This document shows positions 3,963 through 21,647 of a DNA stretch of 64,000 nucleotides, one piece after another. This DNA comes from Alphaproteobacteria bacterium. Lineage in GTDB: Bacteria > Pseudomonadota > Alphaproteobacteria > Rhodobacterales > Rhodobacteraceae. Made by a program: the position numbers and the translations under genes. Numbering within the stretch: the first letter of the stretch is position 1; every line of letters begins with the position of its first letter. The notes under the pieces were generated by a model. It saw only the letters and a list, made by a program, of their open reading frames with translations, was not told the DNA's origin and did not search any database. The stretch covers positions 124,001 through 188,000 of the forward strand of contig JAUHVK010000001.1 in NCBI GenBank assembly GCA_030425145.1, written 5' to 3'.

Positions 3963-4036
3963 CAGAGTTTCCGTTGCACCCATGAGGCCCAGCAGTTACC
4001 ACCCTTGTTTGCGGCTCACAACAATTCGGGATGCCC

Positions 4037-4771
4037 ATGGGAGCTCAATCTCCTCTACTGCTTCTCACGCGCCCGCAGGCGTCTTCGGACGCGTTCTGGC
4101 AGGATCTGCCGCACGAGATCCGGGATGCTGTCGATATTTTAATCAATCCGCTGATGTCTATCGAGGTTTCGGGCCCTTTGCCTGACCTGACTGGGGTGGC
4201 TGGATTGATCTTCACGTCGGCGAACGCTCTTGATGCATATGCAAAACTAGGAGGAACGGCCCTCAACATTCCGGTAATTGCCGTTGGGACATCGACTGGG
4301 CGCGCGGCCCAAGTTTTGGGATTTGAAACGGATATCGCGGGGGGAACAGCGGAACAGGTGATAGAGCATGTCTTGCGCCAAAGTTATCGCGGACCGCTGC
4401 TTCATCTGCGCGGCGAAAACGCTATTGGTGAAATCGCGGCTCGCCTTAGCGCCGCTGGCGTGGAAACCTCTGAGGCCGTTCTATATAGACAGAGGCTGGG
4501 ATCCTTCTCCGAAGCGACACGGGAAGCTTTGTCGCAAGACAGGCCGATCATCGCTCCGGTATTCTCACCGAGAACGGCCCGGCAACTGGGGCGCGAATCG
4601 ATGGGCTTTGAACAGATTCGGTTTGGCGCGATAAGTCAGGCGGTCGCGGATGCTTTGCCCGTCGGATGGCCGCACAGAACTCGCGTGGCGCAGCGACCTG
4701 ACCGGAGCGGAATGGTGGAGTTGGTGAAGGACATGATCATGGACGTCGCAAACCTTGAGCGACGGCAATGA
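4037..4771 (+). CDS. hemD: Uroporphyrinogen-III synthase HemD
   Basis: About 244 residues. HemD cyclises hydroxymethylbilane to uroporphyrinogen III in tetrapyrrole synthesis. The family is very divergent. Recognisable parts are the N-terminal LLLLTRPQ strand, GLIFTSANALDAY, a GPLLHLRGENA segment and the C-terminal VFSPRTARQL. Starts at 4031 and 4037 are both possible; 4037 leaves a GGGA element five bases upstream. The order hemD, mitofilin-like, hemY-like is conserved in many alphaproteobacteria and supports the call. Confidence 0.88.
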   Translation: MGAQSPLLLLTRPQASSDAFWQDLPHEIRDAVDILINPLMSIEVSGPLPDLTGVAGLIFTSANALDAYAKLGGTALNIPVIAVGTSTGRAAQVLGFETDIAGGTAEQVIEHVLRQSYRGPLLHLRGENAIGEIAARLSAAGVETSEAVLYRQRLGSFSEATREALSQDRPIIAPVFSPRTARQLGRESMGFEQIRFGAISQAVADALPVGWPHRTRVAQRPDRSGMVELVKDMIMDVANLERRQ

Positions 4772-4833
4772 CAGACGCAGAGTAAAGTTGACTTAACTGT
4801 CTCTTTAGATTGACAGATTCGAAGGATTAACCG

Positions 4834-6303
4834 GTGGCGAAACGCAAGAGCACGGAAAAAACCTCAAAAGAAGAAACAGAAAGCAAGGTTGAAACTGACC
4901 GTGCGCCAGATGAGGCAGTCGTCTCGGAAGAGGCGTCCAGAAACTTGGACAAAGCTGAGGAAGCTGTTGAAGCGGAAGAGGTCAAAGATGCCGCAGGTAA
5001 CTCCGAGGGCACGGATCAACCCACGGAATCCACGCCGATTGATACACAAGATGCTGCAACAGTTGATGTGATCGAAATGCCGGAACCTGAAAAAGACACG
5101 GCGGCCGATGAGACAGCTGATACCGCAATGGACAGCGAATCTGTTGAAGGTGATACGGACAATGACGCGACCGCCGACGCGGTTGATGACGATCACCTGA
5201 CGGAAGAAGAAGCCGAAATTCTGATCGAGGAAGCTGAATCAAGTGAATTCCGAGGCACCGCGCCGGACGTCGTTTCTGATACAACTCCGATCGCGCCGCA
5301 GGTAATCAAGGAAACAACCATTGAGCGCCAAGGCGGTTTTTTCCCAATGCTCCTCGGCGGCGCTGCTGCTGCGGTCTTGGGGTATGGCGTGGCAGCGTAC
5401 AGCTCTCAGGCGGTCTGGCCGTTTAAAAGCGCGGAAGACACCAGTTTTGAAACCGAATTACGTGACGCGCTAACCACTCAGGATGGCGCGCTGTCAGACC
5501 TCGGTGCACGCATCGCGACGCTGGAGGGCGTAGAGGTGCCGACGGTTGATCTGTCTGGCATCGAAGGCCAGATCGCCACGCTTCAATCGACAAGCGATGA
5601 TCTGGTTGTGCGCTTGGGCGAACTCGCGTCTCGCATGGACACGTTGGAGCGTCAGCCGCTCGAGAACGCTGTATCGGAAGAAGCCATCGCCGCATACGAG
5701 CGTGCACTGGCCGATCTTCAGGCCGAGGTCGAGACACAACGCGCCGAAGTGGCTCAGATGGCCCAGAGCGCGGTCGCCGCAGAAGAGAACGCAGAAGAAA
5801 AAGCGCAGTTGGCTGCGTCCCGCGCCGCCTTGGCAGAGATGACAAGCGCCTTGGATACCGGAACTGGTTATGCCGGGGCCGTTGAGGTGTTGACCGCGAA
5901 CGGGATCTCTGTGCCGGAAGCCTTGGTCGCCAATTCGGAAAGTGGCGTCGCCACGCAGTCTGCTCTGATTGAGGCATTTCCCGATGTAGCCCGCGCCGCA
6001 CTGAGTGCCGCGCGTAGAGCCGACACGGACAGTGTCGAAGGAATGAGCCGGATCACGACCTTCTTTGCCAACCAACTGGGCGCGCGATCCGTCGCGCCGA
6101 AAGAGGGTGACGATCCGAACGCGATTCTTTCCCGCGCTGAAGCGGCCGCCCGATCGGGTGATCTCTCTGCAGCATTGGCGGAATTGTCGGCATTGCCCGA
6201 AGTCGCGCAGTCGGCTGTGGCGGATTGGCAAGCCCGCGCAGAAACACGCCTCACGGCGAAAACAGCAGTGGACGGTCTCGTCCAGCAACTGCTTCAGGAA
6301 TAA
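4834..6303 (+). CDS. Mitofilin-like coiled-coil inner-membrane protein
   Basis: 489 residues with a GTG start. Residues 1-165 are a very acidic, low-complexity, probably cytoplasmic tail. One transmembrane helix follows at about 169-190. The rest is helical with coiled-coil character (about 205-345) and a C-terminal helical region. This architecture and its place between hemD and hemY match the alphaproteobacterial mitofilin (Mic60) family, linked to intracytoplasmic membrane shaping. The acidic N-tail is fast-evolving, so the call rests on architecture and synteny. Confidence 0.8.
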   Translation: MAKRKSTEKTSKEETESKVETDRAPDEAVVSEEASRNLDKAEEAVEAEEVKDAAGNSEGTDQPTESTPIDTQDAATVDVIEMPEPEKDTAADETADTAMDSESVEGDTDNDATADAVDDDHLTEEEAEILIEEAESSEFRGTAPDVVSDTTPIAPQVIKETTIERQGGFFPMLLGGAAAAVLGYGVAAYSSQAVWPFKSAEDTSFETELRDALTTQDGALSDLGARIATLEGVEVPTVDLSGIEGQIATLQSTSDDLVVRLGELASRMDTLERQPLENAVSEEAIAAYERALADLQAEVETQRAEVAQMAQSAVAAEENAEEKAQLAASRAALAEMTSALDTGTGYAGAVEVLTANGISVPEALVANSESGVATQSALIEAFPDVARAALSAARRADTDSVEGMSRITTFFANQLGARSVAPKEGDDPNAILSRAEAAARSGDLSAALAELSALPEVAQSAVADWQARAETRLTAKTAVDGLVQQLLQE

Positions 6304-7991: not shown

Positions 7992-8273
7992 CTTTTCAAT
8001 AGACTTGGCTGTTTTGAACGTTTCGACGTGACCGCACTTCGTGTGTCGGCAGGTCATTTGCTCCGCTCGGTGCGCTCGCATCAATCTTTGGCACCAAGTG
8101 GCCAAATTTGACGGAATGTCGTACGGGCTGATCAGAAGGGGAACTGCAGTCTCGGTTTAATGCCACCTCCATGCGAGTCTCGACAACGAAGAGATGGCGG
8201 CTTACCCAAGATGAGACCAGCGGTTGCGTCGCGGATCGTTGGGGTGGCGAATCTTACGGATGAGGAGAGGTTT

Positions 8274-9947
8274 GTGGCACAAGCACTCCTTTCAAGACTG
8301 TTGGGCCCGTTTTCGATCCCCTGTTTTCTCTTGGGGATTTTGTTCTTTGCCGCATCGCTGACCCCGTCGTTGATCCCTAGAGGACCAGAGGTTCAAGGCA
8401 TATTGGGCGGTCTGGTGACTAGTCTTGGGTACTTGCTCGGCGCCATCATTGCCTTGTTTTGGAAGGCAGCGGATCTGCCGACCTTTTCTGGCCGTCCGGC
8501 GAAGGTGGTGACCGCGATCGCGGTGCTTATAATTGGGGCGGTTTTCTTGTGGGCGCTGGGGTCCAGCCTGACTTGGCAAAACGCGCTCCGGGCCAAAATG
8601 GGGATGGAGCCTGCAGAAGGACTCAGGCTTGCCACGATTGTCCTCTATGCGATTGTGACATTCGCTGTCGCCTTTTTGCTGGGCCGGGCGGTCGCATCGT
8701 TTTTTCGTGTGATCCGCGCACGGTTCTACCGCGTCATGCCGCCCCGTCGGGCGAATGTATTGGGCTTTCTTGTCGCGGTGACCATTCTGTATGTCGTTAC
8801 GCTTGATGGCCTTTTCGACACTGTAGTTACAGGTCTCGATGAAAGTTACGAAGCAGCGCAGGCGCTTTTCGATCAAGCACCACCAGCGCCAGTGGATTCT
8901 AACAGAACCGGAAGTCCGGCATCGTTGGTGGATTGGGCCGCTATCGGAACACCCGGTCGCGACTACATCATGTCAGGTCCAGACGCCGAGGACATCTCGG
9001 CCTTCAATCAACGTCCTGCGCTTGATCCCATCCGGGTCTATGTCGGGCGGGCGAACGCTGAAACGCCTCAGGCACGGGCAGAGCTTGCACTTTCAGAATT
9101 GAAACGGTTGAACGCGTTTGATCGGGAGGTCCTTATCGTCGCCAGTCCAACTGGAACGGGTTGGATGGACCCCGGAGCAGTTGACCCGGTTGAATACATG
9201 CACAACGGCGACATTGCGACGGTGTCCGTCCAGTATTCCTATCTCCAGTCGCCGCTTGCCTTGATCCTCGAGACCAATGCCGGGTTGGAGCAGGCGACCG
9301 CGCTGCAAGAGGTGATCCACGGGTATTGGAAGACGCTGCCCGCCGATGCGCGCCCACGCCTCTACGTACACGGATTGAGCCTTGGGGCGTGGTCTTCGAT
9401 GCATGCCACCAATCTGTTCAGACTGTTGGACGATCCGATTGATGGCGCCTTCTGGGCCGGTCCACCGTTTCCTTCCGCATTTTGGAGTTACGTTCAGAAT
9501 CAACGGAATCCCGGTTCCCTCTGGGTCATGCCCAGCATTGGGGATGGCTCCCTCGTGCGGTACGCGTCGCATATTGATGACGCGTCGAAGGCGGAAGCAA
9601 ATTGGGGGAATATGCGGATCGTGTTCCTCCAGTATTCCAGCGATCCGGTGGTCTTCTACGACCCGGCTTCACTCTGGAGAGCGCCGCCGTGGATGCGCGA
9701 ACCAGCAGCGCCCGACATGTCCGAGCACTTTGTCTATATGCCCATCGTTACGCAGTTCCAGCTTGCTGTTGATTTGGCGCTGTCCTTTGGCTCACCCCCC
9801 GGTTTCGGGCACGCCTACTACGCGCGCGACTATGTCGGCCCTTGGGTACAGGTGACCGATCCAGATGGCTGGACGGATGCCGATACAGAGCGCTTAATCG
9901 CTCATTGCGACAACGGATTTCAGGCGGGGTGTTCCAACGGCGGTTGA
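8274..9947 (+). CDS. Integral-membrane alpha/beta hydrolase
   Basis: About 557 residues. Several N-terminal membrane helices (roughly the first 200 residues, including FFAASLTPSLIPRGP) precede a soluble domain with the nucleophile-elbow motif GLSLG in YVHGLSLGAW. This is the Abhydrolase_9_N plus Abhydrolase_9 pair. The likely role is a membrane-bound serine hydrolase or esterase; the substrate is unknown. I chose the GTG at 8274 because it has an excellent SD (GAGGAGAGG, six bases upstream of the start). In-frame ATGs at 8160 and 8211 would add 38 or 21 residues and lack a good SD. Confidence 0.82.
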   Translation: MAQALLSRLLGPFSIPCFLLGILFFAASLTPSLIPRGPEVQGILGGLVTSLGYLLGAIIALFWKAADLPTFSGRPAKVVTAIAVLIIGAVFLWALGSSLTWQNALRAKMGMEPAEGLRLATIVLYAIVTFAVAFLLGRAVASFFRVIRARFYRVMPPRRANVLGFLVAVTILYVVTLDGLFDTVVTGLDESYEAAQALFDQAPPAPVDSNRTGSPASLVDWAAIGTPGRDYIMSGPDAEDISAFNQRPALDPIRVYVGRANAETPQARAELALSELKRLNAFDREVLIVASPTGTGWMDPGAVDPVEYMHNGDIATVSVQYSYLQSPLALILETNAGLEQATALQEVIHGYWKTLPADARPRLYVHGLSLGAWSSMHATNLFRLLDDPIDGAFWAGPPFPSAFWSYVQNQRNPGSLWVMPSIGDGSLVRYASHIDDASKAEANWGNMRIVFLQYSSDPVVFYDPASLWRAPPWMREPAAPDMSEHFVYMPIVTQFQLAVDLALSFGSPPGFGHAYYARDYVGPWVQVTDPDGWTDADTERLIAHCDNGFQAGCSNGG

Positions 9948-9975
9948 AGGTGCACGGCCTTTGCTTCACGTAGTT

Positions 9976-10485
9976 TCAATGGATGACGTATTTCATCGAA
10001 GCCAAGGCTATGCCGACGCCCCCGGCAAAAAGCGCGCCGAGGACTGATGAAAAGACCGAAGCATCAACACGCCAACCGACGCGTGCTCCGACAAGCATCA
10101 AAAGGCCGGTGCAGTATAGCTGGGAGAGGGCAACAGCGGTGGCTACCGACCAAGCATCGAATTCGGCTGCGATGAAGAACATTGTCGGAAGGTTGGCAGC
10201 CACCAGTGTCACCCGCGCATGATGCCATGCGTTCGACAAGGAGACCCGCGTTATGGGTTCACCTGTGTTGATCGCAGTTGACATCACATCCGCAAACGCT
10301 TTGGCCAGTGAGATGGCCAGAACTGAGCCAAACAGCACCGCAGCCGATGTCAGCGCCGAGTCGGGGTGAAGTGCCATTGCCATCAGCAACGCAAGTGCCG
10401 TGACAGAGCCGTAGATCATGCCGAACGCTGCCGTGTCCACGCGGGCCCAAAAGCCTGTTGCACCCGTATCAATATTGGCAGCCAT
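9976..10485 (-). CDS. Hypothetical multi-spanning membrane protein
   Basis: 169 residues with about five hydrophobic helices separated by short polar loops; no family recognised. ATG 10485 is preferred because GGAGGACTCAAAG precedes it with normal spacing; a longer frame to 10569 exists but looks unnatural. It is divergently transcribed from the amt-type gene at 10787 and convergent with the alpha/beta hydrolase. Its position at the edge of the methylated-amine island could be incidental. Confidence 0.65.
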   Translation of the reverse strand: MAANIDTGATGFWARVDTAAFGMIYGSVTALALLMAMALHPDSALTSAAVLFGSVLAISLAKAFADVMSTAINTGEPITRVSLSNAWHHARVTLVAANLPTMFFIAAEFDAWSVATAVALSQLYCTGLLMLVGARVGWRVDASVFSSVLGALFAGGVGIALASMKYVIH

Positions 10486-10786
10486 CTTTGAGTCCTCCAC
10501 CCAATCCAATGTCTGATTTGCACATACCGACGCGGCAAAGCCAATCGCTGAAATAGAATTCTTCTTCAAAGTCGACTGGTTGAACTCTGCTCAATTTTTC
10601 GGCGGGCATCAAGATTCCTGTCTGCAATCGTATCAAATCGCCGAAATTCAAAGTTTCCCCATACGAAAAACATTTGACCCACAGTGTAACCGCGCCTGCC
10701 ATGGCATCGGTGACGGGTCTGTTTTCCAAAAGCTTCGCATGGACCCACGATCCTTTGTGAGTGGACGAAAGGAACAGGAGATCGAA
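10486..10786. other. Intergenic region between divergent membrane-protein and amt genes
   Basis: 301 bp with no coding potential I trust. It must hold the promoters of both flanking genes. A TTGACC at about 10673 could be a -35 element, but no convincing -10 box or sigma-54 promoter (TGGC-N8-TGC) was found. An in-frame ATG at 10739 is an alternative start for the amt gene. Confidence 0.5.
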
Positions 10787-12166
10787 TTGGAACAAGACCT
10801 GACAGCATTGGCGGCTACGGTCGCAGAGCTTAAGGCGAACGTGGCTGCAACGAACGGCACCTTCGCTGAGACGTTCTACTATATTACCATTCCCCTCATG
10901 GTGCTGATCCATGCGGGGTTCCTTGCATATGAAATGGGGGCATCGCGGTCAAAGAACGCTTTGGCCTCAGGCATCAAGAACATCCTCGCCTTTGCGATGA
11001 TCGTGCCCTTTTTCTATTTCGTCGGTTGGTGGATCTACTGGGCCTTTCCCACGGGTCTCAGTCTGTCCGAAGGCGCGATGGGAATCTCGGGTCTGGCTTA
11101 TGCCAACGAGGTGGCGTTGCCATGGAGCGAGTTCATGGGCCCGAACCTTGATGATCGTGCCTCTGGTGTGTTCTGGGGGGCTTTTGTTCTGTTCGCTGCA
11201 ACCACGGCGTCGATCATGTCGGGTGGTGTGATCGAACGGATCAAGTTAACGGGCTTCGTTGTTCTGGCCATCGTGCTGGGCGCATTTGTCTGGATTCTCG
11301 CAGCTGCCTGGGGTTGGCACGCGGACGGTTGGCTGGTCACCAAATTCGGCTATCACGATTTCGGCGCAGCGGGTGTCGTGCACATGATCGCGGGCTTTTT
11401 TACCCTTGGGGTACTGATCAATCTCGGACCGCGGATCGGTAAGTTCAACTCGGACGGCACGGCCAACCACATCGCGGGACACTCGATGCCGATGACACTG
11501 ATTGGCCTGATGCTGATCATTGCGGGCTTCTGGGGCTTTCTCATGGGCTGCGTGATCGTTCCGGGTGAGGCGTGGTCTTGGAGCTCGAACATCGAAGCGA
11601 CCATTTATGGCACTCCGATGACCATGGCGGGGATGACCTTCAACACGCTCATGGGTTTTGCCGGGGGTATCATCGGAGCCTGGATGGTCACGCGGGACCC
11701 GTTCTGGATGATGTCGGGCGCGCTGGGCGGGATCATCTCATGTGCGGCGGGACTTGACCTTTGGTATCCGCCAATGGCCTTCGCCATCGGCTTTATCGGA
11801 GCCAGTGCAATGCCGTTTGTGGCCACGTTTGTTGCAAAGATGCGGATTGATGACGCCGTCGGGGCATTTGCCGTCCATGGCTTCCTTGGCCTTTGGGGGT
11901 TACTTGCCGTCGGCATCGCCGCTCAGGGGTATCCGGCGCTTTTCGGAGAGGACGTGATCACCACCTCATTCACAGGTCAATTGGTGGGTGCCATTGTCAT
12001 GGGGCTCTTGGGCTTTGTACCGGGCTATGTGGTGTCGCTGATCCTTAAGGTCACCGGCCAATTGCGCGTTCCGGAAGAGGCAGAGATCCTTGGTCTGGAC
12101 GCAGTCAAAGTGCCTGCCTCAGCCTACCCGGAATCCATCCATCCCTCGGTCACTCCGGCGGAATGA
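10787..12166 (+). CDS. amt: Amt-type ammonium/methylammonium transporter (divergent subfamily), copy 1
   Basis: About 459 residues with 11 membrane helices. The pore twin histidines are visible in HDFGAAGVVHMIAG and AVGAFAVHGFLG, and the Asp eight residues before the first His is kept. The usual Amt signature GWFGFNxGS is replaced by GFWGFLMGC, so it belongs to a divergent branch, as does the second copy at 38602. TTG 10787 is the favoured start: GGAG lies six bases upstream, and the resulting N-terminus (EQDLTALAATVAEL) aligns with copy 2 (MDGNLNALTTVF). Beside the TMA monooxygenase gene, it may import ammonium or a methylated amine. Confidence 0.85.
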   Translation: MEQDLTALAATVAELKANVAATNGTFAETFYYITIPLMVLIHAGFLAYEMGASRSKNALASGIKNILAFAMIVPFFYFVGWWIYWAFPTGLSLSEGAMGISGLAYANEVALPWSEFMGPNLDDRASGVFWGAFVLFAATTASIMSGGVIERIKLTGFVVLAIVLGAFVWILAAAWGWHADGWLVTKFGYHDFGAAGVVHMIAGFFTLGVLINLGPRIGKFNSDGTANHIAGHSMPMTLIGLMLIIAGFWGFLMGCVIVPGEAWSWSSNIEATIYGTPMTMAGMTFNTLMGFAGGIIGAWMVTRDPFWMMSGALGGIISCAAGLDLWYPPMAFAIGFIGASAMPFVATFVAKMRIDDAVGAFAVHGFLGLWGLLAVGIAAQGYPALFGEDVITTSFTGQLVGAIVMGLLGFVPGYVVSLILKVTGQLRVPEEAEILGLDAVKVPASAYPESIHPSVTPAE

Positions 12167-12505: not shown

Positions 12506-13855
12506 TCAGTTCTGAAGATAGACTTCGAGGCTGTCGTCCAGAGCGTCCTTCCACGGGGTGTGGTGCACCGGAGCCATTGTGCCGGTGATCACCGACTTAT
12601 AGCTATTGTTGCGGAAGCCCATGATGTCCTTGGACTTGTGTTTCTTCCATTCGAAGAACGCCTCGCAGGCGCCTTCGATGTCAAAGCTTGGGTAGTCTGT
12701 CTCGGCCACCAGTTCTTTGACGTAGTCGGCCTGGTAACGGATGGCGTACTTGGTGTCGTCGTCCGCTTCCTCGCGCTCTTCGCGTTCCTTGACGTCGGCC
12801 AGCATGTCTTCCTTGGATACTTTGGACAGATCGATCTTGCCCATGATCGCATCGCGGACCCACCATGCTTGCGCGTCGAACATGTTGAAGGTGAACCACT
12901 GGTCCTGCATGCCAAGGTAGAACATCTTGGGATTGTGGACGTAGACAACGCCCTTATACAGGTCTGCAGTTGCGAGCCGGTTGGCCGTCTTCAGGCGCAG
13001 GTCGTCAGGCAAGAAGCTGAAATAGTGCTTGTAGCCCGTGCACAGGATGATCGCGTCGACTTCTTTGCTGGTGCCATCGGAGAAGTGCACGGTGTTGCCA
13101 TCGACTTTGACCATGGCGGGCTTTTCTTCCCAGTTGTCCGGCCAGTTGAAGCCCATCGGTGCGGAACGATAGCAAGAGGTGACTGTCTTTGCGCCGTACT
13201 TCCAGCATTGCGAGCCAATATCCTCCGCCGAATAGGACGATCCTACGACAAGAATATCCTTGCCGCTGAATTCCCGCGCGTCGCGGAAGTCATGCGCGTG
13301 TACAAGGCGTCCGTTGAACGATTCAAAGCCCTCGTAGTAGGGCACATTCGGCGTTGAGAAATGCCCGGAGGCGCAGATGACATAGTCGAACTCTTCGGAG
13401 TAGCTGCTGTCTTTGGTGTGGTCATGGGCGGTGACTGTGAACTTGCCCGTGTCCGCGTTGTAGTTGACCCAGCGTACCGCTGTGTTGAAGCGGATCCAGT
13501 CGCGCACGTTAGCCTTCAGGACGCGGCCCTCAATATAGTCGAATAGAACGGCGCGGGGCGGGTAGGATGCGATCTGCTTCCCGAAGTGCTCCTCAAAGGA
13601 ATAATCCGCGAATTCCAGACCTTCCTTTGGGCCGTTGGACCACAGGTAACGATACATCGAGCAATGCACAGGCTCGCCGTTTTCATCGAGGCCGGTGCGC
13701 CAAGTGTAATTCCACAACCCACCCCAGTTGTCCTGCTTTTCAAAGCAAACAATTTCAGGGATGTCTTCGCCCTTGGCGGCTGCGGACTGGAATGCGCGCA
13801 GTTGTGCCAGGCCCGATGGGCCCGCGCCGATGATGGCAACTCTGGTCTTGGTCAT
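12506..13855 (-). CDS. tmm: Trimethylamine monooxygenase (flavin-containing monooxygenase)
   Basis: 449 residues. Tmm uses FAD, NADPH and O2 to oxidise TMA to TMAO in the cytoplasm. Visible: FAD site GAGPSG (residues 10-15), FMO-identifying motif [11 protein letters not shown] (180-190), and NADPH site GSSYSA (205-210). Blocks such as [14 protein letters not shown] and [11 protein letters not shown] are characteristic of bacterial Tmm rather than other FMOs. ATG 13855 follows GGAGACGCAC, a good SD. The gene stands alone, divergent from the leaderless SBP gene, and is the entry point of the TMA pathway encoded across the island. Confidence 0.95.
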
Positions 13856-13873
13856 GTGCGTCTCCATGCTGGT

Positions 13874-13910
13874 ATGGACCAATGTTCGATTATTGGTGCT
13901 TTTGGTCCAT
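13874..13910. promoter_or_regulatory. Inverted repeat in the tmm leader/promoter
   Basis: ATGGACCAA (13874-13882) and TTGGTCCAT (13902-13910) are perfect 9-bp inverted repeats separated by 19 nt; the match extends to GG-Y-ATGGACCAA. They lie 19-55 bp upstream of the tmm start, where a repressor or activator would act. Confidence 0.5.
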
Positions 13911-13949
13911 GCCAGACTGGGCAACACCCCCCTGCGTTGTCAATGAATT

Positions 13950-13962: not shown

Positions 13963-14017
13963 TATAATTTCACTGCCGGCCTCTGGTGCGCTGCACCGAA
14001 GCTGCTAAAATCAGGGC

Positions 14018-15328
14018 ATGTCCAGTTCGAGTTTTGCCCAACGCCTCGCTATCGGAAGCTCGCTTCCTCGATTGTCTGTCGGCATGTCCGAGGCAATCAA
14101 CATCGGATTCCTTGCGCCGTTGAGCGGTCCGGCGAAATCCTGGGGCCTGCCCGGGCTGAATGGTTGCCGACTGTGGGAAGACTGGTTGAACAGAGCCGGG
14201 GGCTTGCTGCTAGGCGGCCGACGATTCCCGGTGTGTATCCATGCAGTTGATTGTGGCTACGACGCCAACCGCGCGCTCGAGGGTGCACGGCACTTGGTTC
14301 GGACCCACGACGTATCATTGATGATGATGTTGGGGGGTGAATCGTTCCTTGCCGTCCGCGACTACCTGATGTCAAACAAGGTGCTGACCTCGACATTGTT
14401 GACCAGCGACCTGTCGCCAGACACGCCGTACCTTATCGCTCCTAGTGAGTCGTTGCCCATCTACACAGTTACGGCGGTCGACTGGATTGCGCGCAATCTC
14501 CCTGAAATCAAGTCTGTCGCGCTGTGTGCCCAGACTGATGCGCTGGGTCTGCCCGCGCTGGCGGCTTATCGTGCTGCTTTCAAGTCGGCGGGCATCAGCA
14601 TCGTCGAAGAAATCCGGTATGATCCAGAGACTGCCGACGGAGCTTCTGTCGTTGCGCCGATGATTGCGGCGAATCCGGACATGCTGTGTTGGTGTGCCAG
14701 TTATACGCCAATGGTGCATGCGATGACGGAATACGCCTTTCGCCAAGGATTCACCGGTCAGGTGCTGTCCTGCACGGCGGACAGCTATGACCAACTGATC
14801 GCCCGTACCTCACCCGAGTTCATGGAAGGCTTTCTGTTCCAGTTCCCGGATTTCGACGACCCAGCCCTGGCAGAAAAAGCATTCTTCTTCAGCCAGCCGC
14901 AGACGTTTTTCGAAGAATACAACGCGCGCTTTCCGAACAGTTGGACGGCGGTCAGTTGGGAATACGCCGCGATTCTGGACATTTGGCAATCGGCTGTCGA
15001 GCGCGCTGGCAATCCGCAGCCGGTTTCCGTTCTTGCAGCGATGCGGCAACTGGGCAGTGTGATGCATGCTTTCGGCCCGGCGAGCTGGTGGGGCGAAGAC
15101 ATGTTCGGCCTCAACCACACGCTCATCGGGGATTGGCCGGTGGTGCAAATCCAACAGGAAAAGGCGCGGATCGTGGAGTTCGGGTCGATCCCGGACTGGC
15201 TGTCGCGGCACGAAACGTTGTTGAAAGAGGAAATGACGGCGCTTGGCCAGCTATGGCACCAACGCCACGGTGAGAGCGCGCCGCCCAAGAGGCTGGCGGC
15301 ACGGTTGGCGGAGGCTCAGCCCTCCTGA
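14018..15328 (+). CDS. Leaderless amide/branched-chain-type substrate-binding protein paralogue (AmiC-like)
   Basis: 436 residues (414 if started at ATG 14084). It is clearly homologous along its length to the exported binding protein at 16431-17720; shared blocks include INIGFLAPLSG / IKIGFLAPLTG, DLSPDT, CAQ-x-DALGLP and EFMEGF-x-FQFPDFDDPAL. Unlike that protein it has no signal peptide from either start, and a stop codon at 14006 excludes a longer N-terminus. It is therefore predicted to be cytosolic, like AmiC, the amide sensor of Pseudomonas that has a periplasmic-binding-protein fold. Its stop overlaps the convergent GntR gene by 13 bp. Confidence 0.8.
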   Translation: MSSSSFAQRLAIGSSLPRLSVGMSEAINIGFLAPLSGPAKSWGLPGLNGCRLWEDWLNRAGGLLLGGRRFPVCIHAVDCGYDANRALEGARHLVRTHDVSLMMMLGGESFLAVRDYLMSNKVLTSTLLTSDLSPDTPYLIAPSESLPIYTVTAVDWIARNLPEIKSVALCAQTDALGLPALAAYRAAFKSAGISIVEEIRYDPETADGASVVAPMIAANPDMLCWCASYTPMVHAMTEYAFRQGFTGQVLSCTADSYDQLIARTSPEFMEGFLFQFPDFDDPALAEKAFFFSQPQTFFEEYNARFPNSWTAVSWEYAAILDIWQSAVERAGNPQPVSVLAAMRQLGSVMHAFGPASWWGEDMFGLNHTLIGDWPVVQIQQEKARIVEFGSIPDWLSRHETLLKEEMTALGQLWHQRHGESAPPKRLAARLAEAQPS

Positions 15329-16044
15329 AGCAGCATCTTCTGCTCTTCGATCAGGTGCAGCTTTATGTATTCAACAGCAGTTTCCACGTCGCGCGATGAG
15401 ATCGCGTTGAACAGGGCATTGTACTGCGTCTGGTAGACTTCGATTCGCTTCGGAGTCAGGTGGCGCCGCATCAAGTTGGATCGGAAGGTTTGGAGGCAAG
15501 CCTCAATCGCCAGTTCGTAGCAAGAGGCCAGAAGCGGATTGCCGGTGCCATTTGCGATTTTCCGATAGAAGGCCTCTTCTGCCTTGATGAAATCACTGGA
15601 ATCGGTGGTGACGGCTTCCAACTGGGTCAGAATATCATCCAGTTCCATAATGTCGCGTGGGGTCATGTTGATGACCGCGAGGCGCACCATCTCGGGTTCA
15701 AGAATTCCGCGCACAACCAAGTGATCCAGCGGGCTGGTATTCTCGGCCAAGGCGGTGCGGCTATCAGGGCGAGCGGCCTCGGACTTATAGGTGACAAAGC
15801 TGCCGCTCCCTGCTCGCCGCCGGATGATGTTGCGGGATTCCAGAACGTCGAGTGCATCTCGAACGGTATTTCGGGCAACGCCCAGCTCCGATGACAATGT
15901 GCGTTCTGACGGCAGACGGGTCCCTTCTGGATATTCCTCTGATTTGATACGGGCAAAAAGGCTGTCGATAACGACTTGCACCGTCGCACCAACCGAGTGG
16001 TTCGTGACGATCTGCGATGCGGTGCGTTGTGTATGCGGAGCCAT
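15316..16044 (-). CDS. FadR-subfamily GntR transcriptional regulator
   Basis: 242 residues: an N-terminal winged helix (about residues 18-85, with EGTRLPSERTLSSELGVARNT carrying the recognition helix) and a C-terminal all-helical FCD domain (about 105-230). ATG 16044 is favoured because GGAGG lies 11 bases upstream; ATG 16089 would add 15 residues and has no SD. It diverges from the ABC transporter operon starting at 16431 and probably controls it. A near-palindrome TTTTGGTACTAAAA lies at 16185-16198 between them. Confidence 0.88.
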   Translation of the reverse strand: MAPHTQRTASQIVTNHSVGATVQVVIDSLFARIKSEEYPEGTRLPSERTLSSELGVARNTVRDALDVLESRNIIRRRAGSGSFVTYKSEAARPDSRTALAENTSPLDHLVVRGILEPEMVRLAVINMTPRDIMELDDILTQLEAVTTDSSDFIKAEEAFYRKIANGTGNPLLASCYELAIEACLQTFRSNLMRRHLTPKRIEVYQTQYNALFNAISSRDVETAVEYIKLHLIEEQKMLLQEG

Positions 16045-16430
16045 GCCTGGCCGATCCTCCGATAATGCGTAACCGCAAGATATGTGCATCGGATATGGCC
16101 GACAAGGCTCGTTCCCCTAGCTGTGGGCCCAGTTCAACCGCTGCGCACCAGATTTGGCCCGTAATTGGTTCAAGTTCAGCGAAATTTTGGTACTAAAAAG
16201 CGCCCTTGTTCACCAGTTTTTTGACTGTCTCGCGGGAAATCCCCGAAAAATTATAACTATAAGAAACAAATTTTCTTGCGAGGTTGGGTTTGCGTTGCTA
16301 GCCTTTTCTCGAAAGTCAGACCAATTTGGGAAACTGGTACTCTCTCGGATTGGGAAAAAAGCCGAACAGGCCCGTTTTTGGCTTCGCCTCCCGCGTGAAT
16401 CGTCGCGGACCCAACAGTTAGGAGACAAGC
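16045..16430. promoter_or_regulatory. Divergent promoter region, GntR gene / ABC transporter
   Basis: 386 bp without a gene. It contains TTTTGGTACTAAAA (16185-16198, 12 of 14 positions palindromic, FadR-type half-site spacing zero) and AAGAAA-N5-TTTCTT (16261-16277, perfect arms). The second has the same geometry as the AGGAAA-N5-TTTCCT element ahead of torR/tmoX. No clear sigma-70 boxes were recognised. Confidence 0.45.
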
Positions 16431-17720
16431 ATGATCCCGAAATTTCTGACCTCTGGCCCAAGTCGCCGCACCTTTCTGAAGACTGCAGGTGCCGCTGCGG
16501 CCAGCTTTGGCCTTCCGCGCATGGCATTGGCCGCGGGTGAACCGATCAAGATCGGTTTCCTTGCCCCGTTGACCGGAGCTGTTGCAGCTTGGGGGAAGCC
16601 GGGCCTCGACGGTTGCGCCATCTGGGCCGAACGTGTGAACGCTGCCGGTGGCATTCAACTGGCCGACGGTGCCCATCCGGTCGAATTTGTGTCCTATGAC
16701 AATGAATACGATCCCGCCAAGGCGCGCACCGGCGCGACTAAGCTGATCCGCGAGGATGGTGTGAAGTTCATCATGATGCTGGGTGGTGATACGTGGCCGG
16801 GTGTGCAGCCTGTCGCCGAACGCACCGGCATGTTGTTCTCGACTCTGCTGCCGTCCGACCTGTCGCCTGATACCACGACGCTGGTCGCCCCCGCTGAGGT
16901 GCACCCGATTTACAACGTCACTGGCGTTGAGTGGCTTGCCCAGAACAAGCCTGACCTGAAGACTGCAGTTATGTGCGCGCAGGACGACGCCCTTGGTCTG
17001 CCGTCGGTCGCGACCTATCTTGCGGCGTTCGAAGCTGCCGGCATCGAGATGCTGGACGAGCCGCTCCTGTTTGATCCCGCCACCACCGATTTCGCGCCTG
17101 TGGTGACCCGACTGATGGCGAAGAACCCTCAAATCATCTGCTTGGACACCTGCTATTCGGACTATGTACACCCGATCTGCGAGCAACTGTTCCAGCAAGG
17201 CTTCAGCGGACAGATCATCAGCTGCACCGCCGACTTCTACGACCAGATGATCGAGAAAACGTCGAAGGAATTCATGGAGGGCTTCATCTTCCAGTTCCCC
17301 GACTTTGACGATCCCGCGCTGAACAGCGATGCGATCAACTTCCAGGATCCGAACGGTTTTTATGCCGAATACAACAACCGGCATCCTGGCCAGTGGGGTG
17401 CGGTGAGTTGGGAATATGCGTCCATCATGGACATGTGGAAAGCCGCCGCCGAAAAGGCCGGTTCGTCCGAGCCTGACGCCGTGATGACGGCGATGAAGGA
17501 CGGACGTGGTGCGCACGCCTTTGGCGAGGCAGACTGGTGGGGCAAGGATCTGTTCGGCATCGACAATGCGCTAGTCGGCGATTGGCCTGTTGTCGCCATC
17601 GAGAACGGAAAGGCGGTTATCAAGGAATTCCGCTCGATCCCTGACTGGTACGACCGCCACGGCGACCTCCTGGTCAAGCACATGGAGGCCTACGGCCAGA
17701 TGTGGAATCAGCGCGGCTGA
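16431..17720 (+). CDS. ABC transporter substrate-binding protein, urea/short-chain-amide/branched-chain type
   Basis: 429 residues. A twin-arginine-like leader (SRRTFLKTAG..., ending near ALAAG at about residue 36) indicates periplasmic export, possibly by Tat. The mature part is a type-I periplasmic-binding fold of the Peripla_BP_5/6 family. AGTTAGGAGACAAGC gives a strong SD. It is the first gene of a transporter operon of binding protein, two permeases and two ATPases. The substrate is not known; the setting beside TMA/DMA catabolism suggests a nitrogenous C1-yielding compound such as an amide or methylated amine. Confidence 0.9.
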   Translation: MIPKFLTSGPSRRTFLKTAGAAAASFGLPRMALAAGEPIKIGFLAPLTGAVAAWGKPGLDGCAIWAERVNAAGGIQLADGAHPVEFVSYDNEYDPAKARTGATKLIREDGVKFIMMLGGDTWPGVQPVAERTGMLFSTLLPSDLSPDTTTLVAPAEVHPIYNVTGVEWLAQNKPDLKTAVMCAQDDALGLPSVATYLAAFEAAGIEMLDEPLLFDPATTDFAPVVTRLMAKNPQIICLDTCYSDYVHPICEQLFQQGFSGQIISCTADFYDQMIEKTSKEFMEGFIFQFPDFDDPALNSDAINFQDPNGFYAEYNNRHPGQWGAVSWEYASIMDMWKAAAEKAGSSEPDAVMTAMKDGRGAHAFGEADWWGKDLFGIDNALVGDWPVVAIENGKAVIKEFRSIPDWYDRHGDLLVKHMEAYGQMWNQRG

Positions 17721-17728
17721 TCTCCTAG

Positions 17729-17753
17729 GCGGCGCCCGGCTTCTGGGCGCCGC
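17729..17753 (+). other. Intercistronic hairpin after the binding-protein gene
   Basis: Perfect 9-bp stem GCGGCGCCC (17729-17737) with GGGCGCCGC (17745-17753), not followed by a T run. Such hairpins after binding-protein genes commonly stabilise the upstream mRNA or partly terminate, giving more binding protein than permease. Confidence 0.6.
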
Positions 17754-17784
17754 ATTACCTTTCTCAAGACATCGAGTTGAACCT

Positions 17785-18654
17785 ATGGTCGAACTCCTGG
17801 CGCAGACCGGGCTGAATGCCGTCTATGCTGCAAGTTACATATCCCTCGTCGCCGTCGGCCTCGTGCTGATTTTTGGGGTCATGGGCGTGGTCAACTTTGC
17901 CCACGGAGAACTGTTCATGGCGGGGGCATACGCAGTCGTCGCGCTTTATGCCGACATGCACGTACCTTTCTTCGTGGCGGTTGCTATTGGGATGGCCTTT
18001 GTCGGCCTTCTGGGCCTGTTGATGGAATGGGCGCTTTTCCGACCATTGAAAGACAACCCCCTCGGCGGCCTAGTCGCATCCATCGGTTTCTTGATGATCC
18101 TGCAGTCTTTGGCCGTGATGGGGTTTGGCGTTCGGATGGAGCACATCCCACCGGTCACCCAGGAGGTCGTCCGCTTTACTGACAAGGTCGGTCTGCCGGT
18201 GGCGCGCCTGTACGTGATCGTCGCTGCTGTCGTTTTCCTGTCTGCGCTGTGGTACTTCCTGAAACGCACGCGTTTCGGTTGGGCGCTACGGGCATCGGCT
18301 CAAGACCCAGAGGCAGCGGCACTGCAAGGTATCTCGATCACCCAGACCGCTCGGATCGCTATGTTCATCGGCGCTGCACTGGCCGGCGTGGCCGGAGCGC
18401 TGACCGCGCCGCTTGTTTCGGTGAACCCGCATATGGGGCATTCGGTGATCGTCACCGCCTTCATCGTCATCATCGTCGGCGGAGTAGGCTCGCTTGAAGG
18501 GGCAATCCTCGCCTCGATCGCCTATGCCTTTGTGCATACCTTTGTCACGACCTTCTGGGATGGTGTTCTGGCCGATATCGTTGGGCTGTCGCTGATGTTG
18601 ATCGTGCTGATCGTCAAGCCTACGGGCCTGTTCGGGAGTGCGGATCGTGCGTAA
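17785..18654 (+). CDS. Branched-chain-type ABC transporter permease (LivH-like)
   Basis: 289 residues and about eight membrane helices, with the LivH-type core (GLNAVYAASYISLVAVGLVLIFG near the N-terminus; VGGVGSLEGAILASI near residue 235). It forms the inner-membrane channel with the next permease. ATG 17785 begins the family's usual N-terminus. Its end overlaps the next permease gene by eight bases. Confidence 0.9.
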   Translation: MVELLAQTGLNAVYAASYISLVAVGLVLIFGVMGVVNFAHGELFMAGAYAVVALYADMHVPFFVAVAIGMAFVGLLGLLMEWALFRPLKDNPLGGLVASIGFLMILQSLAVMGFGVRMEHIPPVTQEVVRFTDKVGLPVARLYVIVAAVVFLSALWYFLKRTRFGWALRASAQDPEAAALQGISITQTARIAMFIGAALAGVAGALTAPLVSVNPHMGHSVIVTAFIVIIVGGVGSLEGAILASIAYAFVHTFVTTFWDGVLADIVGLSLMLIVLIVKPTGLFGSADRA

Positions 18655-19624
18655 CTTTCTGATCCTTCTTGTAGGCCTCGCCGCGCTGATTGCGCTGCCT
18701 CACGGCCTAAGCTTTTCCCAGCAGGAAATCCTCGTCTTTCTGGTGATCAACGTGCTGCTGGTCACTTCATACCGACTATTGACCCTGACAGGTGAATGGT
18801 CTCTCGGCCATGTGGTGATCATGGGTGTCGGGGCTTATTCCTCGGCGCTGTATACCAAAGAACTTGGCGTTTACGTACCGGTGTCGATGCTCCTTGGTGC
18901 GGTCACGGCAGCGCTTCTGGCGGTGCTGCTCAGCTTTCCGCTGTTCCGGATGAAAGGATTCTACTTTCTCATTGGCTCTTTCGCCGCCGGAGAAATCATC
19001 CGTCTGATTTGGAAACGGTTCCGCGAGCCGTTCGGCGGGGTGCGGGGCATTTCCGGGATCGATCCGATGCCGGACTTTTCCGTAGGTTTCTACCAATTCG
19101 ATTTCTTTGAGCCGGTCTCATACTACTACTTCGCCGGAGCCATCGTGATCGCGTGCCTGTGGATACTGTGGCGGATCGAGAAATCGCCTGTCGGCCTTAC
19201 CTTTCATGCCGTGCATTGGCAGGACAAACTTGCGCAAGCCTCGGGTGTGAACCTGCGTGCCTATCGGACACTGGCCTTTGCCATCGCCTCTGGTTTTGCC
19301 GGGTTGGCTGGCGCCTTGCAGGGACACTATGTCGGCACCGTCAATCCAAACTCGTTCGATATTGAGGTGATGGTTTTCGTCCTGACCTGGGCCATCGTTG
19401 GCGGCACAGCCACCTTTTACGGTCCGATTCTGGGCTGCATCGTGCTGACCGTCCTGAACGAAATCGTGTTGCGGGAAATGGGCCTCGAGCAGGCACGGCC
19501 GCTGATCTACGGCGCGATCATGATCCTGTCGATTCTGTTCCTTCCAAATGGTCTCGAAAGCCTCGTTCAGAAAGCCACCCGCCGCAAGACGACCGCCAAG
19601 CCAGAAGAGAAGGCCGCGACATGA
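18647..19624 (+). CDS. Branched-chain-type ABC transporter permease (LivM-like)
   Basis: About 325 residues with around ten hydrophobic segments. The TLTGEWSLGHVVIMGVGAYSSA block and the GGTATFYGPILGCIVLTVLNE block are LivM signatures. GTG 18647 is chosen because GGGAG lies eight bases upstream; GTG 18638 is an alternative adding three residues. It overlaps the preceding permease, and its stop overlaps the next ATPase start (ATGA at 19621). Confidence 0.9.
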   Translation: MRNFLILLVGLAALIALPHGLSFSQQEILVFLVINVLLVTSYRLLTLTGEWSLGHVVIMGVGAYSSALYTKELGVYVPVSMLLGAVTAALLAVLLSFPLFRMKGFYFLIGSFAAGEIIRLIWKRFREPFGGVRGISGIDPMPDFSVGFYQFDFFEPVSYYYFAGAIVIACLWILWRIEKSPVGLTFHAVHWQDKLAQASGVNLRAYRTLAFAIASGFAGLAGALQGHYVGTVNPNSFDIEVMVFVLTWAIVGGTATFYGPILGCIVLTVLNEIVLREMGLEQARPLIYGAIMILSILFLPNGLESLVQKATRRKTTAKPEEKAAT

Positions 19625-20388
19625 CCGATTTTCTCGAAGTCCGGAACCTGACGATGCGGTTCGGTGGCCTCACCGCAGTCGACAATCTGTCCTTTAAGGT
19701 CGAGCATGGCTCGATCCACGGGCTGATCGGGCCGAACGGAGCGGGCAAGACCACGACGTTCAACATGATCTCGGGATTTTACACTCCGACCGAGGGTCAA
19801 ATCCTGCTGCGGGGCGAAGATATCTCGGGCCTCAAGATGCACGAGGTTGCGCGGCGAGGTGTCGTTCGCACGTTCCAGCACTCGACGCTGTTCGCCGAAT
19901 TGACTGTCTTGGAAAACGCCTTGGTCGGTACGCATATGCCTTTCCGCCCAAACATCTTTGCGGCGATCATTGGTTGGGACAAGGAAGACCGCCGTGGCGC
20001 AGAAGCGCGCGCGCGCGAAGCGCTGGAGTTTTTTGGTCTTGGCCATCTGGCTGAGGAACGGGCGGGCGACCTCTCGCATGGTCACCAGCGCGCTTTGGGA
20101 ATGGCGGTCGCCTATGCCAGCCATCCGGACGTGATCCTGCTGGACGAGCCCTTCACAGGGATGAATCCGGAAGAAACAAAACACATGATGGGCCTGATGC
20201 GGAGGCTCAAGGAGGACGGTATCACCATCCTCCTGGTGGAACACGATATGCAGGCCATCATGGGCCTGTGTGACACCATCACCTGCATGAGCTTTGGCAA
20301 ATTCCTTGCTGAAGGCGGACCAAGCGAGATCCGCAACCACCCGGCTGTGATCGAGGCCTATCTTGGGGGCGCACGTCATGTTGCTTGA
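19621..20388 (+). CDS. Branched-chain-type ABC transporter ATPase (LivG-like)
   Basis: 255 residues. Walker A GPNGAGKTT (about residues 38-46), a signature region DLSHGHQRALGMAVAYA and Walker B VILLDEPFTGMNPEE are visible. The signature is SHGHQ rather than the usual SGGQ; SHGxQ variants occur in LivG/UrtD-type ATPases. It couples ATP hydrolysis to transport with the LivF-like partner, whose start it overlaps. Confidence 0.92.
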   Translation: MTDFLEVRNLTMRFGGLTAVDNLSFKVEHGSIHGLIGPNGAGKTTTFNMISGFYTPTEGQILLRGEDISGLKMHEVARRGVVRTFQHSTLFAELTVLENALVGTHMPFRPNIFAAIIGWDKEDRRGAEARAREALEFFGLGHLAEERAGDLSHGHQRALGMAVAYASHPDVILLDEPFTGMNPEETKHMMGLMRRLKEDGITILLVEHDMQAIMGLCDTITCMSFGKFLAEGGPSEIRNHPAVIEAYLGGARHVA

Positions 20389-21085
20389 GATGAAAGGCAT
20401 CGCCGTCAACTACGGCAAGATCAACGCGATACGGAATATCTCGATCGCGGTGCCCGAGGGAAAGATCGTCACGATTATCGGCGGAAACGGCGCAGGCAAG
20501 ACCACCACTCTTCGCGCGATGTCTGGGATGATCCCTGTCGCCAGCGGTGAAATCCTGTTCGAAGGCAAGCGGATCGACCACTTGCCCGCACACAAAATCG
20601 TTGCCCACGGGATTGCGCATGTTCCCGAAGGTCGCCGCATTTTCAAAGAGATGACGGTCGAGGAAAATCTTCGTACAGGTGCTTTCTTGCGCCGTGACAA
20701 GGACGCTGTGGAAGACGACCTGGAAGACGTGTTCAAGCGCTTTCCCCGCCTGCGTGAACGCCGAACCCAGCGGGCGCAGACCATGTCTGGCGGAGAACAG
20801 CAGATGCTGGCGATTGGGCGTGCGTTGATGTCGAATCCGCGCATTCTGCTGATGGACGAGCCTTCCATGGGCCTTGCCCCCGTCATCGTCGAGGAAATCG
20901 CTCAAATCGTTGAGGAAATCAACGCAAACGGCCTGTCTGTCGTATTGGTCGAGCAAAACGCCGAACTGGCATTGGAGCTCGCCAACCACGCTTACGTGCT
21001 GGAAACCGGAAACTGCGCAATGGAGGGACCTGCAAGTGAGCTACGTGGAAATGAACATGTTCGCGCCGCGTATCTGGGGCTTTGA
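20378..21085 (+). CDS. Branched-chain-type ABC transporter ATPase (LivF-like)
   Basis: 235 residues. Walker A GGNGAGKTTT, signature MSGGEQQMLAIGRAL, Walker B ILLMDEPSMGLAP, and the H-loop region replaced by VEQN, as is usual in LivF. ATG 20378 follows GGGGGCGCACGTC; it overlaps livG by 11 bases. The last 50 bases are shared in another frame with the start of the next gene. Confidence 0.92.
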   Translation: MLLEMKGIAVNYGKINAIRNISIAVPEGKIVTIIGGNGAGKTTTLRAMSGMIPVASGEILFEGKRIDHLPAHKIVAHGIAHVPEGRRIFKEMTVEENLRTGAFLRRDKDAVEDDLEDVFKRFPRLRERRTQRAQTMSGGEQQMLAIGRALMSNPRILLMDEPSMGLAPVIVEEIAQIVEEINANGLSVVLVEQNAELALELANHAYVLETGNCAMEGPASELRGNEHVRAAYLGL

Positions 21086-21647
21086 CCGCGACGATGCGGA
21101 AATGCGCGTGGCGCTGGCCGCAGGTTGGTCGCGTGCAGATCTGGTCTGGGAACGCCTGACCGAGGCGGCGCATTCCGCTTTCTCTCAAGGTAAAATACGC
21201 CGGAGCGGGCGCCTTTTGCTTGGGGCGGACTGGGTCTCGCGGTTGTTCTTTGATGCGAGTGATCTGCGCCGGGCCAACACCTTGGCGAACTTGTCTTTGC
21301 TGGCATTTAGGCAGGGACATGACGCGCGGGCCGAGGCTTTGCAAAAGCGTGCGTTGTCAGTCTGGGCGGGGGCGGCATCGGTAATTGATAGTCTGGAATT
21401 CCGCCCGCGTAGTCGCAGTTCGTTGTTCCATCTACGAATGGAAGCGCTGCACCGCGACCAGTTTCACGCCAACATGCGAACCCGCTATCGCCGCATCGCT
21501 GAAGAAACCGAGCAGGCCCTGAGGATGTTGACGGTGGCGGCACCATCGGGCCGACCTTTTTTTGCCCGTTGGCGTGGAGAAAAGCCGCCAGTTTTTGACG
21601 ACAGCCGCAAGTTTCTGGCCGCTGCGCTCGCTTTGATCGACCGCTGA
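21036..21647 (+). CDS. Conserved-looking hypothetical protein overlapping the LivF-like gene
   Basis: 203 residues if started at GTG 21036, which has a strong SD (GGAGGG, eight bases upstream). It overlaps the ATPase gene by 50 bases in a different frame and is therefore translationally coupled to the transporter. The protein is Arg/Ala/Leu-rich and helical, with a TPR-like middle (DLRRANTLANLSLLAFRQGHDARAEAL split over about residues 70-100). There is no signal peptide or membrane helix and no family recognised. It is likely a soluble accessory of the transporter or of the formate dehydrogenase operon that follows. Confidence 0.7.
   Translation: MSYVEMNMFAPRIWGFDRDDAEMRVALAAGWSRADLVWERLTEAAHSAFSQGKIRRSGRLLLGADWVSRLFFDASDLRRANTLANLSLLAFRQGHDARAEALQKRALSVWAGAASVIDSLEFRPRSRSSLFHLRMEALHRDQFHANMRTRYRRIAEETEQALRMLTVAAPSGRPFFARWRGEKPPVFDDSRKFLAAALALIDR

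Follow-up and report, generated by a model that had tools for sequence, protein, structure and literature searches.

A leaderless binding protein beside tmm as a candidate cytosolic amine sensor for the GntR repressor TmoR

What can a binding protein of the transport type do when its gene carries no export leader and stands between the gene of trimethylamine monooxygenase (tmm) and that of a GntR regulator? The question is raised by a gene in the window, the whole stretch of 64,000 nucleotides that was analysed. The window is a methylated-amine and C1 cluster containing genes for an ammonium transporter, tmm (NCBIfam trimethylamine monooxygenase, 833 bits), the leaderless binding protein (LBP), the GntR regulator and a HAAT transporter. 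It further holds formate dehydrogenase alpha with a NuoF-type partner, formate-tetrahydrofolate ligase, two folD genes, TMAO demethylase, a type III glutamine-synthetase-like gene and glutamate-synthase-like genes, the names gmaS and mgs applying to the last of these. An Abhydrolase_9 protein (8160-9947) is encoded beside the cluster. In an earlier note on this DNA, LBP had been proposed as a cytosolic ligand sensor acting through the GntR protein or another partner, and as one half of a sensor/transporter pair for a methylated nitrogen compound. With fair though not high confidence, we propose that LBP is a soluble cytosolic sensor of a methylated amine, probably dimethylamine (DMA), which gates the tmm repressor TmoR in the manner of AmiC but with a GntR repressor as partner. 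The features of the locus are collected in Table 1.

Table 1. Features of the LBP locus, in positions of the window
Feature	Position	Strand	Remark
tmm, trimethylamine monooxygenase, published target of TmoR	12506..13855	-	probable ATG at 13855
Operator-like palindrome CTGGTATGGACCAA, TTGGT-N4-ACCAA type	13869..13882		just upstream of probable tmm start
Second operator-like site TTGGTCCATGCCAG	13902..13915		between tmm -35-like element and tmm start
TTGACA, putative -35-like element of tmm	13938..13943	-	seen by eye in many regions
TGCTA, putative -10-like element of LBP gene	14003..14007	+	ends 10 bases before ATG
LBP, leaderless HAAT/Peripla_BP_6 protein, proposed cytosolic amine sensor	14018..15328	+	436 aa
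Conserved N-terminal peptide of LBP, codons 1-22, replaces Tat leader	14018..14083	+	type M..SSFA[QH]R[LM]A[VI]...[LF]P...VG
GntR/FadR-type (FCD) regulator, syntenic with TmoR of Ruegeria pomeroyi	15316..16089	-	true start may be a later Met
Everted half-sites ACCAA-N9-CTGGT upstream of SBP gene	16320..16338		by eye, in 8/10 regions (not L073, L087)
SBP, exported paralogue with Tat leader	16431..17720	+	TAT_signal, homology to LBP
Two HAAT permeases and two ATPases of transporter	17590..21085	+	ORF bounds; first start uncertain

LBP belongs to the Peripla_BP_6 family (Pfam match over residues 27-380, E 1.7e-52, 179.6 bits) and shares 51% identity over 402 residues with the exported protein encoded at 16431, of which it is a full-length homologue, as the earlier note had stated. 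The gene is oriented divergently from tmm and its 3' end shares 13 bases with the convergent GntR/FCD gene, which bears out the position described for it, between tmm and a FadR-type GntR gene with overlapping ends. For the structure model (pLDDT 87.3) the top fold matches were 3i45, 4ey3 and UrtA. AmiC, whose partner in the AmiC-AmiR system is an ANTAR antiterminator, was also among the fold matches (1qnl, E 5.8e-18; 1qo0, E 3.0e-17), and LBP could on this ground be taken for a classical receptor of that type with its antiterminator encoded elsewhere. We consider this highly improbable, as many transport binding proteins outscore AmiC and the conserved neighbour of LBP is a GntR regulator. 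Alignment to solved binding proteins maps the pocket too loosely for ligand residues to be named. Around residues 225-240, several columns separate LBP strictly from the exported form, so the ligands of the two may differ. Thirty-six columns were invariant among the exported and variable among the leaderless rows, and three showed the opposite, a contrast left unused because the exported sample was smaller (12 vs 26 rows) and less diverged.

The absence of a leader was examined in the window and among orthologues from 16 named contigs, 295 genomes of the family and 385 of the class, which after removal of two repeats gave 36 non-redundant leaderless rows including the window; the carriers are mostly marine bacteria. 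In the window, an in-frame TAA (14006-14008) stands just upstream of the LBP start, and no signal family was matched by LBP in Pfam, while the 16431 protein matches TAT_signal narrowly (22.8 vs a cut-off of 22.7 bits). The twin-arginine motif was found in none of the 36 leaderless rows and in all 15 exported rows scored (one as KR; the row L092 was excluded, its start being unclear), and the median length of the N-terminus is 26 residues in the former against 38 in the latter. The best 12-residue hydrophobicity means overlap (0.62-1.40 in leaderless, 1.05-2.02 in exported rows) and are nearly equal for the two proteins of the window (LBP 1.08, exported protein 1.05), so that hydrophobicity alone cannot separate the forms; LBP is called leaderless for want of the twin arginine, for its shorter N-terminus and for the upstream stops. 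In 13 of the 36 rows a stop precedes the start without any ATG, GTG or TTG in between. For the other 23, upstream starts are possible and none yields RR-x-[FL]; in three of them (L010, L020, L079) a start 8-11 codons upstream would yield a hydrophobic N-terminus. Judged on the twin-arginine motif, given the overlap in hydrophobicity, LBP thus lacks the export signal of a HAAT transport binding protein. Orthologues with a signal peptide, which had been named beforehand as evidence against a cytosolic sensor, did not appear with a twin-arginine leader among the 36 rows, and the leaderless form is conserved across genomes.

In place of the leader, 34 of the 36 rows carry a peptide of the type M..SSFA[QH]R[LM]AV...LP...VG and the other two one like MS.YRFGA; the peptide was modelled, at low confidence, as a short helix. 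Pooled dN/dS is about 0.15 for codons 2-22, 0.10 for the core and 0.38 for the C-terminal tail. Being nearly as constrained as the core, the peptide is probably in use and not a relic. In a tree of 72 proteins the 36 LBP rows are set apart from all others by a branch (support 99/99) that recurs in 100% of 200 bootstrap trees, in an analysis whose bootstrap was not fully settled and which used midpoint rooting only, with two distant homologues as outgroup. The simplest reading of this pattern would be a single, ancient loss of the leader. In 12 of 13 LBP pairs dN/dS lay between 0.042 and 0.160 (one pair gave no value), by which measure LBP is under purifying selection. We therefore give very little credit to the view that LBP is a duplicate in decay or an exported protein that was mis-called, although it evolves more quickly than its exported counterpart (path to L019 0.13 vs 0.038), the three alternative starts exist and the N-termini of the window pair are alike in hydrophobicity; the dN/dS values, the single group in the tree, the retention of the peptide without a twin arginine and the stop codons close upstream in many loci speak against this view. 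Nor does its conservation fit a recent duplicate, and the proposal that decay would have undone is in this respect unharmed. Among 349 genomes of the phylum one further locus was found (L134, of the same family and outside the count of 36), which is leaderless, starts with GTG, carries SSSSLAQRLAV, adjoins tmm and has a perfect operator; no GntR gene was found within the 1.5 kb examined. In G134, an open frame of 1210 codons was rejected as a fusion protein, since its upstream part looked un-protein-like by eye and runs antisense over tmm.

The sensor/transporter pairing that had been suggested is partly right. Of the 36 loci, 34 have LBP beside tmm, one of these being truncated at a contig end, and 10 have the HAAT transporter adjacent to LBP, there with a binding protein of its own; LBP itself was not found to be a member of an ABC transporter operon. 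When at most the five best candidates per genome were scored, no exported paralogue was found at 1e-40 in 16 of the 21 LBP genomes of the family; it was present in the other five and in six further family genomes without LBP. The lasting pair is therefore sensor and repressor. Two observations concern the transporter itself. After its second ATPase a protein of about 217 residues is encoded (20997-21644) that showed no Pfam or NCBIfam match and occurs with the transporter in 16/16 family loci and 1/18 class stretches, and a relative of it (39%) lies at L088:5720-6307, where the transporter is absent. At L019:10411-12225 the exported binding protein appears as a frame of 605 residues, longer than its relatives, possibly through a frameshift or assembly error.

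The GntR neighbour combines a GntR helix-turn-helix with an FCD domain and lies beside tmm with one gene between. In the portion of PMC13390433 drawn on here, TmoR (SPO1553) of Ruegeria pomeroyi DSS-3 is described as a GntR repressor of tmm, the tmm promoter is bound by its DNA-binding domain (the only domain for which this was shown), and its homologues occur in 13 of 29 strains, 12 of them beside tmm and usually with one gene of unknown function between. By synteny the gene in the window would be the same, already published tmm repressor. The neighbouring regulator foreseen as partner in the earlier note thus remains and can be given its published identity. Ruegeria atlantica (L016) has the gene order tmm - LBP - GntR, and the GntR gene is convergent with LBP in 32 of 36 loci. 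In three others (L083, L085, L086) the same GntR gene is located elsewhere in the genome beside an amt gene, and at L015 it was not found in the 2.5 kb downstream examined.

Family-wide searches, in which the best five (LBP) or nine (GntR) first-look candidates per genome at most were scored, found LBP in 21 of 295 genomes. Precisely these 21 also gave a GntR match at 1e-90 or better, and no family genome without LBP gave one better than 1.5e-50, in a count that ignores shared ancestry and with a GntR query profile that already held 18 of the 21 proteins found; in the genomes G039, G138 and G246 the GntR gene lies elsewhere and was absent from the profile. In a fuller scan of 15 genomes, with all first-look candidates scored, five that have tmm and neither LBP nor the exported form (G104, G121, G178, G183, G191) gave no GntR match at 1e-30. 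Over 30 loci, protein distances of LBP and GntR correlate at 0.88, against 0.26 for LBP and Tmm and 0.28 for GntR and Tmm. The partial correlation of LBP and GntR is 0.87, attained by none of 2000 label permutations, which break all relatedness; linked genes also share distances by co-inheritance, and Tmm, whose history may differ, is an imperfect control. As a separate observation, the enzyme tracks its adjacent regulator genes poorly, as if enzyme and control pair had separate histories.

These figures also bear on a role of LBP at the enzyme, as chaperone, allosteric subunit or substrate carrier of Tmm and not in transcription. Such a role is suggested by its place as divergent neighbour of tmm and is improbable in our judgement, given the weak LBP-Tmm correlation; moreover, 47 of the 67 family genomes with tmm have no LBP match and, while 20 of the 21 LBP genomes contain tmm, the remaining one (G064) gave no tmm match. 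The preferred partner of LBP is TmoR, and the view that LBP may act through the GntR protein is strengthened by the co-occurrence, the correlated evolution and a conserved operator.

That operator, TTGGT-N4-ACCAA, was found in 27 of 34 tmm-LBP regions at one mismatch or less and in 32 at two or less, compared with 1.5% and 14% of dinucleotide shuffles; other gap lengths gave 0 to 3 of 34 at one mismatch and 3-17 at two. The regions include about 12 bases of tmm coding sequence, as the tmm query began at residue 5, and for L086, whose tmm gene is truncated at the end of the contig, 220 upstream bases were used. At two mismatches or less the operator was absent from all nine tmm upstream regions unlinked to the LBP-GntR pair, one of them (G275) from a genome that holds the pair elsewhere. 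It was also not found at one mismatch or less in the stretches examined of L087 and L088. Perfect TTGGT-N4-ACCAA sites lie between the relocated GntR gene and amt at L113:6184 and L115:1483, not in L114 (two of three loci), which suggests from the site alone that the ammonium-transporter gene is also a target there. As a genome-wide marker of a regulon the operator was discarded, TGGT-N4-ACCA being too common (93 places vs 73 for the reversed control). In 7 of 10 regions preceding the exported SBP gene, TTGGT-N4-ACCAA was not found at two mismatches or less, and the weak sites in the other three (L007, L071, L073) were not credited. On the LBP side, 22 of 36 loci have a TGNTA whose end lies 9 or 10 bases ahead of the ATG (1.3% of shuffled sequences), and because of this spacing the LBP mRNA may be without a leader; in the window the in-frame stop at 14006 overlaps this element.

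If TmoR is the partner, it has to be asked whether it needs a separate sensor. With FCD metal-site positions placed by what we take to be the zinc ligands of 2di3, these positions are altered in the GntR proteins to E171 in 29/29, Y175 in 23/29 (His in 3) and Y, F or N at 223 in 29/29, and the last metal-site His (245) is retained in 24/29. Such changes would permit a separate sensor but do not demand it. FCD domains usually bind ligands themselves, and FadR of E. coli has no metal site and yet binds its ligand. The main rival to LBP as sensor is accordingly that TmoR itself senses DMA or TMAO through its FCD domain and that LBP does another cytosolic job, such as amine buffering or the tuning of another protein. 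We give this a modest probability, well short of even: the published model, in the portion of PMC13390433 drawn on, has DMA and TMAO as TmoR effectors and the metal-site His is mostly kept, whereas the strict co-occurrence, the distance correlation, the alteration of the other metal-site positions and the persistence of the pair away from tmm speak against it.

The persistence of the pair away from tmm is seen at L087 and L088 (2 of 36 loci), where LBP-GntR adjoins a gene for trimethylamine dehydrogenase (992 and 1314 bits to 1djn); the genome of L087 gave no tmm match. At L088, two trimethylamine-dehydrogenase-like genes, 66% identical (3434-5632 and 9794-12016), flank the pair. Among 18 stretches around the exported SBP taken from other Alphaproteobacteria, eight contain tmm and four a trimethylamine-dehydrogenase-like gene that is complete or almost so (51-59% to the closer of the two queries); of the remainder, one has a partial dehydrogenase at its edge, three have full-length tdm only and two are short contigs with none of these. 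In 16 of the 18 the transporter thus stands with tmm, trimethylamine dehydrogenase (five, one partial) or tdm only, which makes the HAAT transporter at 16431-21085 a candidate ABC importer for amines of the trimethylamine (TMA) type. When the genomes behind the three tdm-only cases were searched, tmm was not matched and no dehydrogenase exceeded 44%, so that TMA as the only ligand is disfavoured. DMA is the product common to these TMA routes and as such fits the published mutant data. From these data, in the portion of PMC13390433 drawn on, DMA was deduced to be the main and TMAO a minor effector of TmoR, and TMA not to be one. This is a counterpoint to LBP as sensor: TMA is excluded as effector, yet the pair sits by TMA enzymes. 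Of the ligands proposed in the earlier note, a methylated nitrogen compound is still favoured, and an amine (DMA, TMA or TMAO) is more likely than an amide.

The case for LBP and TmoR is made by the conservation of the leaderless form, the purifying selection, the co-occurrence and correlated evolution of the two proteins, the operator that tracks them and their association with two unrelated TMA-consuming enzymes. From these we infer the location of LBP, its ligand, its contact with TmoR and the direction of control. In the mechanism proposed, the ligand sensed by LBP inside the cell would be a methylated amine, most likely dimethylamine and otherwise TMAO or TMA. With the amine absent, TmoR would occupy the TTGGT-N4-ACCAA sites over the tmm promoter; with the amine bound, LBP would alter its contact with TmoR and the repression of tmm would be lifted. 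Either liganded LBP would pull TmoR off the DNA, which we slightly favour, or apo LBP would be a co-repressor that lets go on amine binding. Most simply, LBP would be the amine receptor that is missing from the TmoR model. A bolder form of the proposal, put forward tentatively and with somewhat less than even confidence, is that this exportless binding protein has become indispensable as the intracellular receptor for methylated amines (DMA) of a GntR/FCD repressor with a degenerated sensor site, and docks by a newly evolved N-terminal peptide; the two proteins would then form a receptor-plus-repressor switch that serves two unrelated TMA enzymes in turn.

The first step of trimethylamine oxidation in the sea is controlled by Tmm, which by the title of a reference in PMC13390433 (number 36) is reported to oxidise dimethylsulfide too. 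The repressor of tmm is known and the amine sensor has so far been deduced from mutants only, and naming a likely sensor makes the question directly testable in the model strain. The literature covered on leaderless binding proteins with regulators, the tmm locus and HAAT/TMA transporters, a scope that leaves aside Lidbury et al. 2016, reportedly the paper cited for TmoR, contained no report of LBP as a sensor.

Compared with HAAT transport binding proteins of the LivJ and UrtA type, LBP has the same family and fold, and the proteins nearest to it in sequence are HAAT proteins with Tat export, encoded beside their own permeases; it differs in being leaderless and in occurring mostly where no exported paralogue was found. 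A HAAT binding protein of the R. pomeroyi tmm-tmoR region, probably the LBP orthologue, is labelled periplasmic in the legend of Fig. S4 of PMC4744692, whereas the LBP orthologues studied here have no leader. The TmoR system as presented in the part of PMC13390433 used agrees in the GntR family, the repression of tmm and the position near tmm with one gene between; it differs in that the published model lets TmoR recognise DMA and TMAO itself and leaves the intervening gene without a function. AmiC-AmiR of Pseudomonas aeruginosa, an entry in the reference list of PMC9602780, likewise pairs a soluble binding-protein fold with a protein of transcription control, and the fold and missing leader of LBP would fit a cytosolic receptor of this kind. 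Here the partner is a GntR/FCD regulator with a DNA operator, no ANTAR antiterminator is found in the operon, and identity in the structural alignment is 16-17%. If the proposal is true, LBP would join AmiC as the second binding protein of the transport type to have become an intracellular receptor, in this instance for a GntR repressor.
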